The notes under the pieces are model-generated. The model worked only from the letters and a program-made list of their open reading frames with translations, did not search any database and was not told the DNA's origin. 64,000 nt of DNA from Yersinia mollaretii ATCC 43969 (lineage in GTDB: Bacteria > Pseudomonadota > Gammaproteobacteria > Enterobacterales > Enterobacteriaceae): positions 310,001-374,000 of the forward strand of contig NZ_CP054043.1 in assembly GCF_013282725.1 (NCBI RefSeq), in the 5' to 3' direction. Made by a program: the position numbers and the translations under genes. This document shows, one piece after another, positions 1 to 15,613 of this stretch (positions are counted from its first letter, which is position 1; every line of letters starts with the position of its first letter).

Positions 1-663
1 AAGGTCACGAGAAGTATTATAATGTCTGCTATATATATGGAATGTCCCTACATACCAGGATAAGGTTCCCACCTGATAACCTAATGTTGTCGCGACAATT
101 TCGTGAAGTACGCTCCACTCAAAGAAGTTAATACCACTAAACCCCCAAATAGCATCATTTGCTCGAACCGTAACATGCAAATATAATATATTATCTCTCT
201 GTATAAATTGCAGCCAATTATTGCATGGTACATCTTTTGTATCTGAATAATCACTCATGGGATCAAATAAAGACATCACTGCGCGTTTAGTATTAGGATC
301 TTCTTGCAATCGGCTGATGACACAAGAAACCTGATCAGTTTTCCCCATCCAATTTCTTAGACGCGGCCCATAAGCGGCACGCCATGTCTTGTTATCATCA
401 GAAAACTCTATTGATCTCGGTAGGTAATGCTGTAGAAACTCAAGGTCTCCCCTACCGGCAAGTACCCAGATAGTTTCTGCAAGTTGGGCAAATACATTAT
501 TTTTACGCTCAGGAATGACAAGAAAACGCTCCCTGGGATTTGCAATTTTCGTCAGTGTTGATAATACTTCTTTTTGTGTCTGGCCTCTTGCAACCATTTC
601 TGTACCAACGCTGTCAATATTCCTAAGAACATCGAGCAATGCATGAGTAATATTCCGATTCAT
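1..663 (-). CDS. Thymidylate synthase-family protein (CMP/dCMP hydroxymethylase-like), 3' end outside window
   Basis: The minus-strand frame is open from an ATG at 663 to the left edge (221 codons read, C-terminus missing). The translation has the thymidylate synthase fold signature: a Pro-Cys nucleophile pair at residues 146-147, followed by NNWLQF, then the phosphate and base contact segment RANDAIWGFSGIN, and a C-terminal part reading GTFHIYSRHY that matches the family's HIYxxH block. Members of this family transfer a one-carbon unit from methylene-tetrahydrofolate to C5 of dUMP, dCMP or CMP. The base-contact segment does not look like canonical ThyA, so a hydroxymethylase of the MilA type is plausible, but this is inference. 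The ATG overlaps the TGA of the upstream gene (ATGA), so the two are translationally coupled. AT-rich relative to the rest of the window. A phage-type thymidylate synthase is the main alternative. Confidence 0.75.
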   Translation of the reverse strand, partial: MNRNITHALLDVLRNIDSVGTEMVARGQTQKEVLSTLTKIANPRERFLVIPERKNNVFAQLAETIWVLAGRGDLEFLQHYLPRSIEFSDDNKTWRAAYGPRLRNWMGKTDQVSCVISRLQEDPNTKRAVMSLFDPMSDYSDTKDVPCNNWLQFIQRDNILYLHVTVRANDAIWGFSGINFFEWSVLHEIVATTLGYQVGTLSWYVGTFHIYSRHYNTSRDL

Positions 664-1145
664 TTTAATTTTTCCAGTCCATTTTTATTTAACGCTTTTT
701 CAATAATATCTGTAAATTCAGTAATATTTTTATAGTGATATATTTCAACCCCAGGGCTTCCTGCAATCATTGCGGATACTAATTTATCGCTATCACGATG
801 CAATACAATCACCGGAATCCGCCACAGAATAGCTGTAGCTATTTCATATCCGACACCTAAGCTTGGTATTGTCACCTCAGCTACAACCACATCGGAATGA
901 CGTAACCATTTAAGATCTCGATCATGTATCAGCCGATCAGAAAGAGATGACTGTCCTTTAATTGAAAGTTAATAATCACCAACATGTTCTGTAATCACTT
1001 TCCCATACTTTTTAATCTCATTAATTAAGCTGGCATAAATAACAACATCCTCACGACCCGCTCTAATTGAACCAGCAAAATAAATGATGGGCTGTGATGC
1101 TACATCATTTAATGTATGGGTAACTGACGATTCTTCTTTGTTCAT
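660..1145 (-). pseudogene. DNPH1/Rcl/MilB-type nucleoside-monophosphate N-glycosidase, interrupted by one in-frame stop
   Basis: Read from ATG 1145 (preceded by an AAGGA-rich ribosome site), the frame encodes 161 residues with a single TAA at 971-969 (codon 59); both sides stay in the same frame. The N-terminal part has YFAGSIRAGRED and ITEHV; the C-terminal part has DRLIHDRDLKWL, then VVVAEVTIPSLGVGYE with the glutamate expected to act as nucleophile. These blocks match the nucleoside 2-deoxyribosyltransferase superfamily, closest to mammalian DNPH1/Rcl and to bacterial CMP or hydroxymethyl-CMP hydrolases. The reaction would release a base from a nucleoside monophosphate. The stop lies between the two conserved halves, and a TTA leucine codon would restore the frame, so it is a recent loss, a sequencing error or a programmed event. 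A 76-residue ORF from an internal ATG at 890 would lack the nucleotide-binding loop. Confidence 0.72.
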
Positions 1146-1643: not shown

Positions 1644-2867
1644 TTATTTTCTATCCCCATCAAACACCATCTTCCATTGCGGCACTGCACTAGCAAAGGT
1701 ACCGCGGTGGCTGGTTTGGCCGGTAGAAATCGCCTGCACCTGCGGATTGCCATTACCCATCGCCTGTTGATAGGTCATCGGCAATTTCCCCAGTCCGACG
1801 CTGATGGCTTCATCCGCTTCGCCATAATAGTTTTTCACTGAGGTTTTAATCACCCAGCGGTAAGCCTGAGTATCGGCTATCAATCGGCCATAGGCTGACG
1901 CCGCAAAAAATTGCGGATCAAAATATTCCGCCCGCACCAGCTTATGTAAATCGGTGGGAATATCGGCTGCATTGAACGGTTTTTTCTCATAGGCATTGCG
2001 CGCTACTTCATAATAATCGTCATTGATGACCGAACGCGCCAAACCGGGCACACCGTAATAATGTTCGAAAGAGAATGCGGACAGGATAAATAACGTCGGC
2101 ACCCAGTCGGCATCATTCTTGCGTGGGAAATTGAGGAACCCGCTTAATGTCATGAAAATATCGGTCGGCGCACTGGCGGTTACTGCGGCCAACACAGGCT
2201 CTTTAATCTGTTCCAGCTTTTCCAGAAAAGCCATGGTGACAAAACCACCCTGTGACCAGCCGGCAAGGAATAGTTTTGGCGTGCTAATCTGCATCTGCTT
2301 TAGCACTGCCCTACTGGCCTGCAACATATCATAACTGGCCTGCTGATGACTGCCCTTCACCATATAGCCTTCCGGTTCGCTGGACTCCCCCATGCCAAAA
2401 TAATCTGCGCCAATGACCACATATCCCTGCCCGGCAAACTGGGCAATCATCAATGCAGTTTCAGGGGACTGCTCCGGGAACGAAGGAACTTGCTGCTTTC
2501 CGTACACCGTGCCGTGTTGGTATGAAACCATTGGCAGCGTGGTGGCTTTGATATCAGGGATCGCCAGCAGCCCACTCGCAACCGTAGGCTTATTACCACG
2601 CTCCGGTATCACCGATGGATAAGTGACACGATAGAGCTGCACCCCATTAGTTGCTGGCGAGTATTTTACTGTTACACCAGAAAATTCGGGGGTTTCCTGC
2701 TGGAGAATTTTATTGAGCCGCGCCTGATCCCAATGACCAATCAACTCAAACCTCACCTCTGATGGCACTTCAACCACCTGAGTACTCTCTGCGAGAGCAG
2801 GGCTTATAGGGAGAAATAGAAAAGATGAGAATAAGAGAATGGCCACTATTTTACGAAGATATGACAT
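1644..2867 (-). CDS. Secreted alpha/beta hydrolase (secretory lipase/prolyl oligopeptidase-like)
   Basis: A 407-residue protein with a clear signal peptide (residues about 1-26, hydrophobic core ending in SPALA before ESTQ), so it is exported. The alpha/beta hydrolase fold is shown by an oxyanion-type segment SYQHGTVYG near residue 115, the nucleophile elbow GWSQGG near residue 203, a late acid candidate in GEADEA and a late histidine in QTSHRG. The central part (GYVVIGADYFGMGES) is typical of the secretory lipase/esterase group. The likely role is hydrolysis of esters or lipids in the periplasm or outside the cell; the substrate cannot be told from sequence. It appears monocistronic, with no partner gene. 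The start was chosen because the signal peptide begins there. Confidence 0.75.
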   Translation of the reverse strand: MSYLRKIVAILLFSSFLFLPISPALAESTQVVEVPSEVRFELIGHWDQARLNKILQQETPEFSGVTVKYSPATNGVQLYRVTYPSVIPERGNKPTVASGLLAIPDIKATTLPMVSYQHGTVYGKQQVPSFPEQSPETALMIAQFAGQGYVVIGADYFGMGESSEPEGYMVKGSHQQASYDMLQASRAVLKQMQISTPKLFLAGWSQGGFVTMAFLEKLEQIKEPVLAAVTASAPTDIFMTLSGFLNFPRKNDADWVPTLFILSAFSFEHYYGVPGLARSVINDDYYEVARNAYEKKPFNAADIPTDLHKLVRAEYFDPQFFAASAYGRLIADTQAYRWVIKTSVKNYYGEADEAISVGLGKLPMTYQQAMGNGNPQVQAISTGQTSHRGTFASAVPQWKMVFDGDRK

Positions 2868-3447
2868 GATTTTTCCTTTTTATTTTGGCTAAGAATGAGC
2901 CTCTCCAAAAATAGCAGATCCAGACTGATTTTCCTTATGTCACTGGCCCTAAAAACCAAACCAGAGTATTACCTATAGTCAGGTTAGTCACCGACTAACT
3001 CTCCATCAATACTGCAATCAAAGGGGATTGTCTGTAGGATAAAACCATTTGTTATGTAGTTCTGTTATTTAATTTCCGAAAAAGAAATACAAACGCGGAT
3101 ACAAACCAAGATATAACTATGTTTATCAATACATAAAGAAGATATGCCAATATTAAAAAAACGAGCATTAAAAACTAAAGCATAGGTATAAACCATACCT
3201 AAGTATAGCTTTAAATTATTTAAAAAAGATTTATCGTTGCCGAAGAGTAAAGATTGAAAATAAGCATTATAATTTAATATACAAAATAGAGATCATTATT
3301 AATGCGTTATCAAGATAATAGTGTTAATGAGAAATTCAATTCAAGTTAAAAAATCTTATTTATACTTAAAAGAGCACTAAAAATTTAACTTTTATGTCTT
3401 CTGAATAATCAATAACAACTGAAATCTTACAATTAAGGATGAAATTT
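2868..3447. other. AT-rich intergenic region between divergent genes
   Basis: About 580 bases separating the minus-strand hydrolase from the plus-strand unknown gene. It should carry both promoters. A/T content rises sharply from about 3050 onward. No repeat, RNA gene or additional ORF with a ribosome site was seen. Confidence 0.5.
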
Positions 3448-4254
3448 ATGTCTGAATTTATAAGCTCTCTAAACTTACATTCAACCGCAATTAAATCAAT
3501 GCCAGAAATTTTGTTTGAAGAATCAATATCAACCCAAAAAACTATTGTCTGGGAAAAAAATGCCTCAGGCATGGATAAAGATTTTTATGTTAGTCTTTCG
3601 GAATTTTACGGTGTAATGTTTTGCAAGCCGAGAGTGAAGAGAAGTGAACTATTCAATCATAATGCATTAACAAATATTATCCCAGACTTTCTTCTGCCCA
3701 AGTTACAAAACATAACACCGATAAATAATGGTAATTTTACTGAAAAAAAACCTGAAAAAAATCTCACAAAAAACAATAATAAAGCTTTGGACTATTATTA
3801 CCGTAAGGTAAATGAAAATAACAAAAGTAAAATGAGAGAGTATGAACCTGCATATAAAACAGAGGTAATTAAGTTCATTGCCAAAATTAAACCTATTATG
3901 CAAAGCAGTACTTTAGATCCAAAAATCTTACCCATAATAAAAGAAGTCACAGATAAACAAGCACTCTATGACAAAATTAAAGATATACAAAAGTATCTGG
4001 ATCATATCTGCATGTATGTTGGCGAATTAACTTTTGTCATTGAGGAAAAAACACATAACATTAAGTTAATTGATCTTGCTGCTGGTTCGGGTGGAGAATC
4101 AGCAAAAAAAAATCAGCCCGCGATTTCATCTGGTCTAATGAACATTCAGGAACATATTCAGTCAAAATACTTAAACAACAAAAACAATGTTGATTCAGAG
4201 TACTCACGCCTCCCCAAAAACAATACCATTATTTATGGCTCTAATGACAAATAA
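3448..4254 (+). CDS. Unassigned AT-rich protein, possible acquired effector-like protein
   Basis: An open frame of 268 residues from ATG 3448. AAGGA at 3435-3439 is eight bases upstream of this ATG and overlaps the in-frame ATG at 3439, so 3448 is the better start. The protein has no signal peptide and no membrane segment, is rich in Lys and Asn, and has a long charged middle (residues about 90-200). Near residues 195-215 it reads ELTFVIEEKTHNIKLIDLA, loosely like the end of a kinase-type catalytic lobe, but the usual HxD motif is absent, so no family is assigned. Codon use and base composition are much more AT-rich than the neighbours, suggesting horizontal acquisition. It stands alone, between two secreted enzymes. 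Alternatives include a cytoplasmic toxin or a type III-type effector; neither can be shown here. Confidence 0.6.
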   Translation: MSEFISSLNLHSTAIKSMPEILFEESISTQKTIVWEKNASGMDKDFYVSLSEFYGVMFCKPRVKRSELFNHNALTNIIPDFLLPKLQNITPINNGNFTEKKPEKNLTKNNNKALDYYYRKVNENNKSKMREYEPAYKTEVIKFIAKIKPIMQSSTLDPKILPIIKEVTDKQALYDKIKDIQKYLDHICMYVGELTFVIEEKTHNIKLIDLAAGSGGESAKKNQPAISSGLMNIQEHIQSKYLNNKNNVDSEYSRLPKNNTIIYGSNDK

Positions 4255-4498
4255 ATATAATCTAAAAATTCAGGAGAAATAAAACCATTAACAAATAGAA
4301 CATTATAAAACATCACAACTTATGGTGTGGCAACTATTTTTGAATAGTATTTTCAACCTGCTAATATTAAATAGGCAACCCAAAAACGCATATTTTGATG
4401 TAGAAACGGAAATTACCAATATTCACTTGCAATGACCATCGTATAAATAACTACGTAAAATTATTCATTTTTACTTTCAAATTCAATGGAGTTGATTC

Positions 4499-6490
4499 AT
4501 GTCTTCAAGAATATTGTATACTGCCCGAATGGCTGCACTCGCTGCCACTTTATCGTTCTGTATCACCCCTTCGTCATTCGCGTATGGCCAACTTTATGTA
4601 TTTGGCGATAGTCTGAGCGATACCGGTAATAATGGAAAATTCACCTACGATAGCAGTACCCACCTTCTGTATGACGAAGTGTTAGCACAACATATAGGCG
4701 CCAACCTGATCCCATCCAATATCGGCGGCTTCAATTATGCTACTAGTGGTGCCGTAGCTACTCCGGCACTGAATGCCACTAACAACACTCAAGATCAAGT
4801 GCAAAATTATCTGAACCAAGTCAATGGTAAAGCAGATAGCAACGGCCTGTATATCCACTGGATCGGCGGTAATGATCTCGCTGCAGCTGCAACATTAAAC
4901 CCAGCCGCGTCACAAACAGTGGCTTATACCAGTGCTGCGGCTGCCGCTATGCAGGTACATTCATTGCTAAACGCGGGTGCTGGCACGGTGATAGTGCCGA
5001 CGGTCCCCAATATCGGTTCTACGCCAATGTTAATGGAGTTAGTTATCCAGCAAGGATTGACCTCTGTGCAAAATGCCGCAGTGCAAGCGGCCTATGCCAC
5101 GCTAAATTCCCTTGCCACTCCAGACAATACCAGCCATCAGCAGGCTATTCATCAGGCACTTACCGCTGCTGCTGGGCAAGCAAGCATTATCCCACCAGTC
5201 CAGCAAGCGATCGCAGCTCAGCTTATCGACGCCTACGACAAATTAAGCACACAGGCCGAGCAACTTACCAACTTTTTCAATAGCAGCGAAGATCACCTGT
5301 TAGCACAAAGTGGTGGCAATATTGTAAGAGTTGATGTGAACAAATTATTTGCCGAAGTTATCGCCAACCCACGCCAATTTGGTTTTACCAATACGGTAGG
5401 GATGCCCTGCCCACCGGGTGTATCGTCAGCAGTTTGTAGCGCTACGCAAACCGGTTTTGATCACAGCCAATCGTATCTGTTTGCCGATAATTTTCACCCA
5501 AGTCCACAAGCCCATTTGCTGGTTGCCGATTATATGCAGGCAGTACTTGATGGGCCAACACAAGCTGTCGCCCTGACCCAAGCTACGGCAGCAATAGCCC
5601 GAGACAGCCGCGCCACGCTTGATAGCCGCTTCCAACAATTACGCATCGGCAAAAATCCGCAGAATACCCTAGGAATCTTTGGCGGTTATGCTGGGCAGCA
5701 TTACGACTATTCAGCCAATTTGACAGCTGGAAATGGCAATGCCACCACACATAATCTGAGTGTGGGTGTTGACTATCAACTGACTAGTCGCTGGCTTATT
5801 GGAGCGCTGATATCGGGTTCGAATGACAATCAACAACCTTCCACCCGCTATGATTACAAAGCACGAGGTCTCTTGTTCTCAGCATTTACCGCCTTGAATA
5901 TAGTTGACCACGGCTGGATAAATGCTGATTTACACTACGCAACTATGAATTACGATGACATCCAACGCAGTATGCAACTAGGGCCAATGACCCGTACTGA
6001 GAACGGTAATACCGATGGTAAACAATGGGGAGCAAGACTGACCGTAGGTTATGACATTCCGATCACTCCCTATCTGACAACCGGGCCGATAACACAATTC
6101 TCTCTCGACTACAGTAATGTGTCGGGTTACAGCGAGCAAGGTAGCAGCAGCACTGCAATGCATTTCAACGATCAAACCTACCATTCACAGATTGGTGCAC
6201 TCGGCTGGCGATTGGATGGACAATTTAGCCAATTCGCCCCTTACGCCGAAGTGCTCTATCAGCACCAATTTGGTGATGATGTCTACCGAGCAGGTGGCGG
6301 GTTGAAATCTACTCAAACCCAATTTGTGCGTAACACCGCCAAACAGGATAACAACTGGCTGGATATTACTCTCGGAGCCAGCCTACCATTGACCGACCGA
6401 TTAACTGCATTTGCCTCCATCTCTCAAACCGGTAATCTGAGCAGTGGCGAACAGCTTCGATATAACATCGGTGTCAGTGCCCTTTTCTAG
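4499..6490 (+). CDS. GDSL esterase autotransporter (EstA/ApeE type)
   Basis: A 663-residue outer-membrane esterase. The signal peptide covers residues about 1-28 (ending SSFA), followed directly by the lipase block YVFGDSLSDTGN with the catalytic serine. Block III is IGGNDL near residue 123 and block V is DNFHPSPQAH near residue 332, giving the Asp and His. From about residue 395 the protein becomes a beta-barrel of alternating strands (type V secretion translocator), ending in the terminal phenylalanine typical of outer-membrane barrels. Length and layout match ApeE/EstA autotransporters, which display an esterase that cleaves acyl esters on the cell surface. A GGAG ribosome site lies about ten bases before the ATG. 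It is monocistronic and followed by a terminator. Confidence 0.9.
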   Translation: MSSRILYTARMAALAATLSFCITPSSFAYGQLYVFGDSLSDTGNNGKFTYDSSTHLLYDEVLAQHIGANLIPSNIGGFNYATSGAVATPALNATNNTQDQVQNYLNQVNGKADSNGLYIHWIGGNDLAAAATLNPAASQTVAYTSAAAAAMQVHSLLNAGAGTVIVPTVPNIGSTPMLMELVIQQGLTSVQNAAVQAAYATLNSLATPDNTSHQQAIHQALTAAAGQASIIPPVQQAIAAQLIDAYDKLSTQAEQLTNFFNSSEDHLLAQSGGNIVRVDVNKLFAEVIANPRQFGFTNTVGMPCPPGVSSAVCSATQTGFDHSQSYLFADNFHPSPQAHLLVADYMQAVLDGPTQAVALTQATAAIARDSRATLDSRFQQLRIGKNPQNTLGIFGGYAGQHYDYSANLTAGNGNATTHNLSVGVDYQLTSRWLIGALISGSNDNQQPSTRYDYKARGLLFSAFTALNIVDHGWINADLHYATMNYDDIQRSMQLGPMTRTENGNTDGKQWGARLTVGYDIPITPYLTTGPITQFSLDYSNVSGYSEQGSSSTAMHFNDQTYHSQIGALGWRLDGQFSQFAPYAEVLYQHQFGDDVYRAGGGLKSTQTQFVRNTAKQDNNWLDITLGASLPLTDRLTAFASISQTGNLSSGEQLRYNIGVSALF

Positions 6491-6502
6491 TACAAAAGCG
6501 GT

Positions 6503-6534
6503 AAATCTGACCAGGCAACTGGTTAGATTTTCTT
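6503..6534 (+). terminator. Intrinsic terminator of the esterase autotransporter gene
   Basis: The 12-base stem AAATCTGACCAG/CTGGTTAGATTT, with one G-T pair and a four-base loop, is followed by TTCTT, 12 bases after the stop codon. Confidence 0.7.
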
Positions 6535-7012
6535 AAACTAATAATGAGAAATAAAACGATACCAGTAGGCTAAGGTATATTTAGCTGGAAAGGTCGCAAC
6601 CGCCCCTAATTTTTAGGCATCGCAATACTGTAGGTAATTTCCACTTAACTTATAATCCAAATCCATTAATTGAAAATAAAAACCCCTAAAACCTTAAAGT
6701 TCACTTTAATATAAGACATGATAAATATTTCATAATATTTATATTTGTAATTATTTTTATTATTTATTGGATTAATAAGTGGAAAAAATAAGTTAATCGT
6801 ATCGAATTGATGCCCTAACCTATGCATCAGCACTGTCTTTCCTCTGTAGAACTGCCTTTTTTTTGGGGTAACACCATAAAAAGGTCAACGATTGTGCTTA
6901 TGAAAAATATACGTTAAATATTAGTTAACCTTTTGTAGCCTCCTCAGTGAAGCTATAAATCGGTGATACCTGTGTACCAGAAAATCCGAATTTAAATAAC
7001 AAGGAATATACA
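6535..7012. other. Intergenic region upstream of the TerB-like gene
   Basis: About 480 AT-rich bases. The last 100 should hold the promoter of the gene at 7013 (AAGGA at 7000-7004). No other gene, repeat or RNA was recognised. Confidence 0.45.
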
Positions 7013-7501
7013 ATGAAAAAATTTGACCGTGATGCCACCCTCGCTAGCTGGTTTTTCTATCAAACCTACGGCGTTGATAAAAAAATAAACACGCAACAAA
7101 AATTACATTACCTGCGTCTTCTGCTTGCTTGTGCTAAAGCTGATGGCGAGATCTCTCCTGGGGAAATGGATTATTTTATCGGTGCAGCATTTGCTCGTGG
7201 TTGCACTGAAGAAATGGTTATGACATTAATTGAAAATGAAGCCACTATCGATCTCTCTACGGAAGTGGTTGACTTTATTAAACTAAATCCGAATGCAAAA
7301 AAATCGGACGTTCTTGCATTGCTGTACAGTGCAATGCAAGTCTGCGCGGCAGATGGTACATATAGCACTGAGGAAGTTAACGCCGTCAGAAAAGTTAGTT
7401 CTCTACTCGGTATTTCTAAAGAAGAATTACAGAAAGTTGAAGATTTCTTTGCAAAAGATCTGTCTTTAAAACAAGAAGCACGAACACTGTTCGTCGGTTG
7501 A
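7013..7501 (+). CDS. TerB-like (tellurite resistance TerB family) protein
   Basis: A 162-residue cytoplasmic, all-helical protein. Two similar halves each carry an acidic loop: residues 43-50 read AKADGEIS, with EMDYF following, and residues 111-120 read CAADGTYSTEEV. This duplicated ADGxxxxxE pattern is the hallmark of the TerB fold, which can bind metal ions through acidic side chains. The family includes stress and tellurite-response proteins and unrelated adaptors, so the precise role is unknown. AAGGA eight bases before the ATG supports the start. No ter operon partners (terC, terD, terZ) are near. The gene is flanked by a strong hairpin downstream, so it is probably transcribed alone. 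Confidence 0.7.
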   Translation: MKKFDRDATLASWFFYQTYGVDKKINTQQKLHYLRLLLACAKADGEISPGEMDYFIGAAFARGCTEEMVMTLIENEATIDLSTEVVDFIKLNPNAKKSDVLALLYSAMQVCAADGTYSTEEVNAVRKVSSLLGISKEELQKVEDFFAKDLSLKQEARTLFVG

Positions 7502-13898: not shown

Positions 13899-14516
13899 AT
13901 GACTCGTAAATTAAGAATATCGATTGTTGACCAAAATAATTTTTTTGTCGAAGGGCTAAAAGACGCGATAAAAAAACACTGCCTTGCTAAAGGTATGTCT
14001 GTAGCATTTATGTCTCAGCAATTATCACACCAAGCCGCAAACCTGATATTTTGGGCACCCAGTGACCCAACGAATTTGGTGCCTGTGGGGTTGCAGAGCG
14101 AAGGCAATAATAAATCACAATTGATCATGGTACTGTCACAGCAGGAAATAAATTCAGTCAAACATCAAACACCATGGGTATTCTATCGCAATCAGAGTCT
14201 GGAGACTTTATTAGCCCTCGTTGATCAGGCGCTAATGGCTTCAGTCATTAAGGGCAACAAAAAAGAGCCTGAGAAACAACGTGATATTAGCCACTTAGAT
14301 ATTCTCACTCGTCGACAGAAGCAGATTATTAATTATGTTTCAGAAGGCATCTGCCCAAGTAAGATTGCCGATAACTTACAAATTCATGAAAAAACTGTCA
14401 GTAGCCATAAAAGATCGGCAATGAAAAGATTACAGCTTAATAAGACAACCGATTTATACTATTGGATACTCTCCCACTCTATGCCATCGATGTTAGAAAA
14501 TCGCACACCAACATAA
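13899..14516 (+). CDS. LuxR-family transcription regulator with a degenerate receiver
   Basis: A 205-residue protein. The C-terminal domain (residues about 130-195) is a GerE/LuxR helix-turn-helix: LTRRQKQIINYVSEG, then SKIADNLQIHEKTVSSHK. The N-terminal 110 residues resemble an RcsB/FimZ-type receiver by length and by the opening ISIVDQNNFFVEGL, but the strand-3 position, where the phosphoacceptor Asp should sit, reads LIFWAPSDP, so normal phosphorylation is doubtful. No sensor kinase is adjacent. It probably acts as a constitutive, partner-controlled or ligand-controlled DNA-binding protein. The DsbA-like gene follows after 48 bases on the same strand and is likely co-transcribed. A possible role in controlling surface structures is inferred from family members and context only. 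Confidence 0.75.
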   Translation: MTRKLRISIVDQNNFFVEGLKDAIKKHCLAKGMSVAFMSQQLSHQAANLIFWAPSDPTNLVPVGLQSEGNNKSQLIMVLSQQEINSVKHQTPWVFYRNQSLETLLALVDQALMASVIKGNKKEPEKQRDISHLDILTRRQKQIINYVSEGICPSKIADNLQIHEKTVSSHKRSAMKRLQLNKTTDLYYWILSHSMPSMLENRTPT

Positions 14517-14564
14517 GCAGCTGCATGACCCATTGACAATATCACCGTGACGGAAGCCTCTCTA

Positions 14565-15242
14565 ATGAGTATTTATAAAACGCTAATGCAAGGATTGCTC
14601 TTAACCTTTGTGTTACCCGCATCAATACAGGCCAACGTGGTAACCTCCACAGAAACCGAATTACAGGCAAAACGTCAATCTATTCCACAAGAGGGAAAAG
14701 AGTATATTACGTTAATACATCCTGTTGCCTCACAGCCCAAAGTGGTTGAATTTTTTTCCTTTTATTGCAGCTCTTGCTACCAATTTGTTGAGAATTATCC
14801 GGTCGCCGACGCCATTAATCGTATTTTACCCAAGGGTGAAACCGTCACCAAATATCATGTCAGCATGATGGGGCCACTGGGAAATGAACTGACAGAGGCT
14901 TGGGCTATTGCCATGGTCATGGATAAAACCCATGACGTGGAAAAACCGCTGTTCGAGGCCGTGCACAATCAAAAATTAAAAAACGTTGCCGACATCCAGG
15001 AAGTCTTTGCTAAAGCCGGTATGGATGCCGCGACCTATCAACAAGCACAACAAAGCTTGCTGGTTAAAGGGGCGATTGCACGACAAAAGGCCGCTATTGC
15101 CTCCTTTGGCGTCAAAGGAACCCCCACTTTTTACGTCAACGGAAAGTATCAAATACACAATGCCGGTATCGCGATCACAACTCCTCAAGCCTATGCGAAT
15201 AACTTTGCCGAGGTAGTGCACGCCTTATTAGAGCAACAATAG
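14565..15242 (+). CDS. DsbA-like periplasmic thiol-disulfide oxidoreductase with CSSC active site
   Basis: A 225-residue exported protein from ATG 14565 (GGAAG seven bases upstream; a GTG at 14547 is also in frame). The signal peptide ends near SIQANV. The thioredoxin-fold active site is FFSFYCSSCYQF near residue 64, in the right position after VVEF, and the cis-proline loop GVKGTPTFYVNG is near residue 187. DsbA normally has CPHC and SrgA/DsbL variants have CPxC; here the two middle residues are Ser-Ser, which would change redox potential. It probably forms or shuffles disulfides in periplasmic substrates. The neighbour LuxR-type regulator and the Cys-rich ToxR-like sensor suggest a dedicated client, but no fimbrial or secretion genes are adjacent. 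No DsbB-like partner is seen. Confidence 0.82.
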   Translation: MSIYKTLMQGLLLTFVLPASIQANVVTSTETELQAKRQSIPQEGKEYITLIHPVASQPKVVEFFSFYCSSCYQFVENYPVADAINRILPKGETVTKYHVSMMGPLGNELTEAWAIAMVMDKTHDVEKPLFEAVHNQKLKNVADIQEVFAKAGMDAATYQQAQQSLLVKGAIARQKAAIASFGVKGTPTFYVNGKYQIHNAGIAITTPQAYANNFAEVVHALLEQQ

Positions 15243-15361
15243 GAGACCACAGGCGGCGGGGGTAATAAGCTGGCGTATAACATTTTATTCTTATGGTTCG
15301 CTGTTTTTTATCCCGCTCTTATGGCAATATACGTTCCATATATGTTTCATATAGGCATTTT

Positions 15362-15613
15362 ATGGGTATCGTAAAAATCTCCGATCTGATGCATGAAAAT
15401 CTGCGCATCGCCAGCAATGCCATGAGCCGCTCAATAAACTCGCAAGCAGAACACTGGCTTAAAATGGGTATGCTGGCTGAACTTTATCCCCAATTAACTC
15501 ATCATGAGCTTGCCCGAGCATTAGTTCAGGCAGAACTCCAAGGGGGAGCTGACATCACCAGAATGATTCAAAATGAAGCTCTTCTGAATAAAAAAGAAGA
15601 GGAAGCACAATGA
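15362..15613 (+). CDS. ParD-like antitoxin-family protein coupled to map
   Basis: An 83-residue protein from ATG 15362 (MGIVKISDLMHENLRIASNA). The N-terminus looks like a ribbon-helix-helix (VKISDLMHENLRIAS), followed by an SINSQAEHWLKMGMLAEL segment characteristic of the ParD_like family. The longer frame from 15293 adds an unlikely Arg/Tyr-rich extension. The stop overlaps the start of the methionine aminopeptidase gene (ATGA), so the two are translationally coupled. A classical ParE toxin is not present. The family is found next to type I methionine aminopeptidases in other proteobacteria, so the pair may be a regulator-enzyme unit instead of a toxin-antitoxin pair. DNA binding is inferred. 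Confidence 0.7.
   Translation: MGIVKISDLMHENLRIASNAMSRSINSQAEHWLKMGMLAELYPQLTHHELARALVQAELQGGADITRMIQNEALLNKKEEEAQ

Follow-up and report, generated by a model that had tools for sequence, protein, structure and literature searches.

A gene of the thymidylate synthase (TS) family and a gene resembling nucleotide N-hydrolases overlap at the left edge of a 64,000-nucleotide stretch of the Yersinia mollaretii ATCC 43969 chromosome (the window; positions 310001-374000 of the single 4.60 Mb contig), which raises the question of which nucleotide such a pair would act on and what its product would be used for. The pair appears to encode the opening steps of an unrecognised pathway that leads from an RNA building block to free 5-hydroxymethyluracil, probably destined for a secreted small molecule. 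In the proposed scheme, the TS-family enzyme, with a fold like that of MilA, would convert uridine monophosphate (UMP) and methylenetetrahydrofolate to 5-hydroxymethyl-UMP, as its fold and residues suggest, and a DNPH1-type hydrolase would then yield 5-hydroxymethyluracil and ribose 5-phosphate, as suggested by family and linkage. The gene content of complete cassettes in other bacteria points to two further steps, in which ATP-grasp ligases would couple the derivative to an amino acid and a major facilitator superfamily (MFS) pump would export the coupled product. In the window the hydroxymethylase gene is intact, the hydrolase is interrupted and no ligase was found, so that the locus would be an acquired remnant of such a cassette. 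The scheme taken as a whole, remnant included, stands at about an even chance of being correct.

The whole TS-family gene encodes 357 amino acids (L002:13590-14663, L002 being the window locus; 309590-310663 on the contig). Its 5' part, 221 of the 357 codons, occupies positions 1-663 of the window on the minus strand (PF00303, E 9.4e-25; predicted UMP 5-hydroxymethylase) and the remainder runs 410 bases past the left window edge, with the diagnostic residues Lys126, Cys147, Ala168 and Asn179 all inside the window. A DNPH1-like nucleotide N-hydrolase frame, recognised from the reading frame and the PF05014 profile, lies at 660-1145 on the minus strand, and its stop overlaps the TS start as ATGA (660-663, minus strand). 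The initial annotation had described this overlap; both frames and the overlap were recovered, but an in-frame TAA at 969-971 (minus strand) breaks the hydrolase frame, leaving 58 residues ahead of it. Counting that one TAA, the whole stretch scores above the PF05014 cut-off, and the piece after the stop falls just below it (E 2.6e-6). This frame is the sole PF05014 match in a search of the entire host genome, and a close homologue of 161 amino acids, P0141, is present uninterrupted in the protein database. The G+C content of the TS-family gene (0.38) and of the hydrolase (0.36) is low compared with the window (0.51).

The nearest solved structure to the TS-family protein, by fold and by sequence, is MilA (PDB 5jnh, 5b6d; 26 % identity), the cytidine monophosphate (CMP) 5-hydroxymethylase of mildiomycin biosynthesis. 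The predicted structure combines a TS fold with a helical C-terminal domain, as in MilA-type proteins; the proteins of SPO1 and M6 are long as well, so this domain may not be specific to MilA. Lys133 and Ala176 are the ribose-preference residues of MilA (PMC5175136) and are matched in the alignment by Lys126 and Ala168, whereas the cytosine residue of MilA, Asp186, is replaced by Asn179, in the HMMER alignment as well. The dUMP hydroxymethylase of SPO1 (gene 29) likewise has this Asn and the spacing W-G-x-x-G-x-N, but is a phage gene for DNA and carries Arg/Ser where Lys/Ala stand here. We know of no hydrolase partner of SPO1 gene 29. On these residues the TS-family protein is rather confidently predicted to be a uracil-nucleotide hydroxymethylase, and UMP is somewhat favoured over deoxyuridine monophosphate (dUMP) as its substrate.

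Other assignments were considered and rejected. Seven NCBIfam models matched the protein, the ThyA equivalog included, and none reached its cut-off; at alignment column 169 the query reads RAND where ThyA reads RSCD, with Cys after Arg-Ser, and the host has a separate canonical thyA at 126289-127077. An ordinary phage gene was likewise rejected: matches in 2052 of 50,697 phage records were all below 60 % identity (30-32 % in the 25 rows listed), and 40 relatives from viral contigs in IMG/VR were 35-47 % identical, all with Arg/Ser. Alignment and trees thus place the protein outside canonical ThyA and apart from ordinary phage genes, the two outcomes that would have spoken against the initial annotation. 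A defence system was rejected on the lack of any PADLOC match for the TS-family protein, the Pantoea hydrolase described below and two Pantoea ATP-grasp proteins.

The sugar and base positions were compared across 135 aligned rows, comprising the query, nine other locus rows, host ThyA, SPO1, M6, T4, MilA (residues 24-228) and 120 listed database matches. The sugar positions co-vary completely, with Lys/Ala in 104 rows, Arg/Ser in 31 and no mixtures. Asn occupies the base position in 133 rows, the others being MilA (Asp) and T4 (Tyr, its Asp lying one column off); among the 120 listed matches, all 97 with Lys/Ala have Asn, as does the query. The 40 viral relatives have Arg/Ser with Asn (38) or Asp (2) at the base position. 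Trees were reconstructed from core TS columns with the three diagnostic columns excluded. In the first (77 of the 135 rows), 42 Lys/Ala rows formed one clade (Shimodaira-Hasegawa approximate likelihood-ratio support 98), with three further Lys/Ala rows (P0101, P0112 and P0118) apart and MilA elsewhere. In the second set (67 rows, including 20 of the 40 viral rows), a single clade of MilA with the Lys/Ala/Asn rows was weakly rejected by the approximately unbiased test (P=0.043, with long branches) and a single clade of the Lys/Ala/Asn rows alone was allowed (P=0.193). This suggests, short of demonstrating it, an independent origin of the Lys/Ala code.

Relatives of the interrupted hydrolase indicate what the second enzyme may do. 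The Pantoea hydrolase matched Rcl/DNPH1 best (E 9.5e-34), and all 12 solved sequences found at E 0.01 were Rcl/DNPH1, with no MilB entry among them. The DNPH1 active-site set of Tyr, Asp, Glu and Ser is present in these relatives. In 121 aligned rows (120 listed matches and the hydrolase part of P0103; rat numbering, which is human minus 11), conservation was 121 for Asp69 and Glu93, 120 for Tyr13 (with one gap), Arg19, Ile65, Ser87 and Ala118, and 119 for Ser117 and Met119. The window frame has the Tyr and Arg before its stop and the Asp, Glu and Ser stretches after it, in no single open frame. Human DNPH1 contacts uracil through Ile76, Ser128, Ala129 and Met130 and acts on 5-hydroxymethyl-dUMP (excerpts of PMC10483697); the conservation of these contacts supports 5-hydroxymethyluracil as the base that would be freed. 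The likeness to DNPH1/Rcl thus extends to active-site and uracil-contact residues; the differences are that DNPH1 is an animal enzyme of nucleotide clean-up, uncoupled to a TS gene, with a deoxyribonucleotide substrate.

These residues also bear on a cytosine pathway like that of MilA and MilB, in which CMP would become hydroxymethyl-CMP and then 5-hydroxymethylcytosine. MilA is the closest solved relative and shares the Lys/Ala pair, the two genes come from the same two superfamilies, and the partner resembles MilB/BcmB, the hydroxymethyl-CMP N-glycosidases, in being a PF05014 protein that accompanies a TS-family hydroxymethylase. It also has Arg where MilB has Arg23, a residue that recognises the hydroxymethyl group and is associated with a MilA partner gene (excerpts of PMC4081090). 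However, the base-position Asn of the query and of every listed Lys/Ala match stands against cytosine, and apart from that Arg the MilB motif F-L-(G/A)-(G/A)-P-F-(R/K) is missing: these hydrolases read Y-F-A-G-S-I-R, with Tyr, Ser and Ile in place of Phe17, Pro and Phe22. A cytosine pathway is accordingly very improbable. The MilA/MilB-type pair first proposed for the locus is therefore supported in so far as a MilA-like hydroxymethylase is coupled to an N-glycosidase, but not in its base or in the type of its partner. Judged by residues and family, the pair appears to work like MilA/MilB and by membership is neither MilA, MilB, ThyA nor SPO1-type.

The association of the two genes recurs well beyond Yersinia. 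A hydrolase adjoins the TS-family gene in six of the seven Lys/Ala loci that were read (the window, where it is interrupted, and L005, L006, L007, L008 and L012, of which L005 and L006 are near copies with 99 % identical TS proteins), the exception being Y. massiliensis (L004). None was found in 43 Arg/Ser loci (40 viral and three on Rhizobium/Sinorhizobium plasmids), some of the viral flanks being shorter than 8 kb. The difference is significant if relatedness is ignored (Fisher P=4e-7); genome G798 (L033; Arg/Ser, no hydrolase match) was excluded from the count because its flank was only about 1.5 kb. P0103 is a natural hydrolase-TS fusion. Linkage was also assessed indirectly for the best 120 of 923 and the best 120 of 3710 matches in the TS and hydrolase lists, by comparing source genomes through identical size of the longest contig. 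By this measure 42 of the 120 listed TS matches paired with a listed hydrolase match, whereas shifting the sizes by 1-50 bases gave 0.41 pairs on average and never more than 3, so the pairing exceeds chance. All 42 were Ala-type (42 of 97, compared with 0 of 23 Ser-type), the zero being weak as the hydrolase list is biased to relatives of the Pantoea hydrolase. The paired sources within these best 120 matches belong to Enterobacterales, Actinobacteria, Bacillota and Rhizobium, and by name include Dickeya, Sodalis, Sphaerisporangium, Williamsia, Paenarthrobacter, Priestia and Rhizobium. Draws of 394 genomes from the order, 398 from the phylum and 369 from the class yielded, besides the host, only G152 (with a contig equal in length to that of L007) and G798.

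Several features of the Arg/Ser relatives were recorded separately. Two IMG/VR loci, L038 and L052, read Arg/Ser/Asp, as if switched to dCMP inside a uracil-type family, and numerous Arg/Ser relatives (P0089-P0120, L033 and many viral loci) have 500-600 amino acids and extend past the MilA-like part by about 200 residues. On three Sinorhizobium/Rhizobium plasmids (L013, L014 and L015), Arg/Ser/Asn relatives adjoin genes of the nucleoside triphosphate pyrophosphohydrolase family, together with a uracil-DNA glycosylase and a metallophosphoesterase in L014 and L015, and with a second TS, a nucleotide kinase and a dCTP deaminase in L013. These sets are possibly a plasmid-borne DNA base-modification kit; three L014 proteins had no PADLOC match.

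Complete cassettes were found in four enterobacterial loci, from Pantoea anthophila, Ca. Pantoea gossypiicola, an Enterobacterales metagenome-assembled genome and Tenebrionibacter. They share a divergent regulator (apparently LysR-type, by eye from its sequence), the hydrolase, the TS-family gene, an MFS transporter and two ATP-grasp proteins; the proteins are 59-100 % identical between loci, with Pfam assignments taken from those of L006. The first ATP-grasp protein most closely resembles L-amino-acid ligases (BL00235, BacD). Outside Pseudomonadota, direct gene context comes from one plasmid record, of Apilactobacillus kunkeei, with a hydrolase, a TS-family gene, three ATP-grasps and an MFS protein. 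Identity to the enterobacterial ATP-grasps is 24-31 % for two of the three, and the MFS protein has no match to the enterobacterial transporter at E 1e-8. The paper on this plasmid refers to three genes of the ATP-grasp type and to a putative polyketide, and the words thymidylate, thyA and DNPH1 are absent from its main text (excerpts of PMC9648514). This gene content makes it likely that the pair belongs to a small-molecule pathway.

Whether the Yersinia genes still serve such a pathway was considered from their distribution and neighbours. Four of 25 Yersinia genomes match part of a 5.3-kb stretch, and the genes themselves are matched only in the host and Y. massiliensis (G533); the other two genomes match just 68-78 bases between TS and decarboxylase. 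This restricted presence and the low G+C content bear out the initial annotation's view of the DNA as acquired. The stretch of about 110 bases between TS and decarboxylase (L002:12887-12995) recurs at 4171606-4171714 of the contig with 94 % identity and is perhaps a repeat element. To the left of TS lie a pyridoxal phosphate-dependent decarboxylase (G+C 0.56) and an aminotransferase (0.53), which follow TS in both carriers, their Y. massiliensis counterparts being 87 and 85 % identical, respectively. Further left (L002:853-9593) is a genomic island with CbtA, RadC, DUF4942, DUF5983, DUF932 and GTPase genes. The remaining pathway genes had been expected on this side. However, listed decarboxylase matches paired with no listed TS match (0 of 120), and with no hydrolase match, by the longest-contig-size comparison, and given this and the different G+C content the two genes were downgraded as part of the pathway and are read as a separate module. 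These neighbours appear to differ from those of MilA. A setting of apparently biosynthetic character, with a transporter, occurs elsewhere, in the Pantoea-type cassettes.

The TS proteins of the two carriers are 90 % identical with a ratio of non-synonymous to synonymous substitution rates (dN/dS) of about 0.09, which indicates that TS was under selection for much of the divergence between the two. Such a ratio, with a hydrolase interrupted in one species and not found in the other and with the same two genes following TS in both, would fit a role of TS in another pathway, on its own or together with the decarboxylase and aminotransferase, for which the hydrolase is not needed. That explanation is improbable: the hydrolase losses may be later than most of the divergence, an intact homologue exists in P0141, and the G+C content and missing linkage of the two neighbours speak against it. 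The first Pantoea ATP-grasp had no match in either carrier at E 1e-5, in a search made without a positive control and not extended to the second ligase or the MFS transporter. With its second step interrupted and later genes not found, the window locus is best called a horizontally acquired remnant with a maintained first enzyme. To the right of the pair lie an alpha/beta hydrolase (1644-2867, minus strand), a 271-amino-acid frame without a Pfam match (3439-4254, plus strand) and a GDSL-lipase autotransporter (4499-6490, plus strand). In Y. massiliensis, the region surveyed near TS (L004:2086-16661) contains an amidinotransferase (14358-15488) that closely resembles human AGAT (E 1e-120), two proteins with phosphoenolpyruvate-synthase-like domains and a set resembling, by eye, an amine dehydrogenase operon (2086-7438).

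Several points weigh against the UMP pathway, the main conflict lying between its two enzymes. The hydrolases have Tyr at the position of MilB Phe17, where the change F17Y switches MilB from CMP to dCMP (excerpts of PMC4081090), and this points to deoxyribose, in conflict with the TS code. The pair might then act on deoxyribonucleotides, TS converting dUMP to 5-hydroxymethyl-dUMP and the hydrolase freeing 5-hydroxymethyluracil, with Lys/Ala relaxing rather than switching the sugar preference. The deoxyribonucleotide substrate of human DNPH1 is in keeping with this, as are the nearest kin of the TS-family protein, the Arg/Ser relatives and the SPO1 enzyme. Against it, both sugar positions are switched together in every row that stands beside a DNPH1-type hydrolase here, and MilA is likewise double-switched, losing CMP use when both residues are reverted (PMC5175136). 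A deoxyribonucleotide pair is therefore regarded as unlikely, though clearly less so than the cytosine or Yersinia-specific explanations. The UMP pathway is further weakened by the MilA preference for CMP, which is just 5-fold, and by the choice of hydroxymethyl over methyl transfer, which rests on homology. We know of no assayed enzyme of the Lys/Ala/Asn clade. The rows are related and the trees need about three state changes for the sugar code, so the code has not been tested 135 times. Finally, the hydrolase is interrupted in the window strain, and no PF05014 match was found in Y. massiliensis.

Searches of the openly accessible literature turned up neither a TS-fold UMP hydroxymethylase nor this cassette. 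The nearest precedent is PolB of polyoxin biosynthesis, termed the first UMP methylase by its authors, which likewise modifies C5 of UMP for a nucleoside antibiotic but has the flavin-dependent ThyX fold and methylates both UMP and dUMP (excerpts of PMC5003785), whereas a MilA-like fold and hydroxymethylation are predicted here. We tentatively propose an unrecognised family of MilA-fold UMP 5-hydroxymethylases, with a Lys/Ala code on its own branch and the uracil Asn kept, that is joined to a DNPH1-type partner in Enterobacterales, Actinobacteria, Bacillota and Rhizobium and to ATP-grasps and an exporter in Pantoea, Tenebrionibacter and Apilactobacillus. Its products may form a new class of small molecules derived from 5-hydroxymethyluracil; one of these would be encoded by the plasmid of a honeybee symbiont, for which a putative polyketide has so far been noted. 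If correct, this would bring a UMP hydroxymethylase into the superfamily, whose ribonucleotide-preferring members, according to the MilA paper, were MilA and BcmA, and would give a role to some bacterial DNPH1 relatives. The family would also allow the two-residue sugar code to be tested on natural variants, with 104 rows of one type, 31 of the other and nothing in between. The cassette itself would be a compact and portable one with a 5-hydroxymethyluracil product, carried by plant-, insect- and bee-associated bacteria.
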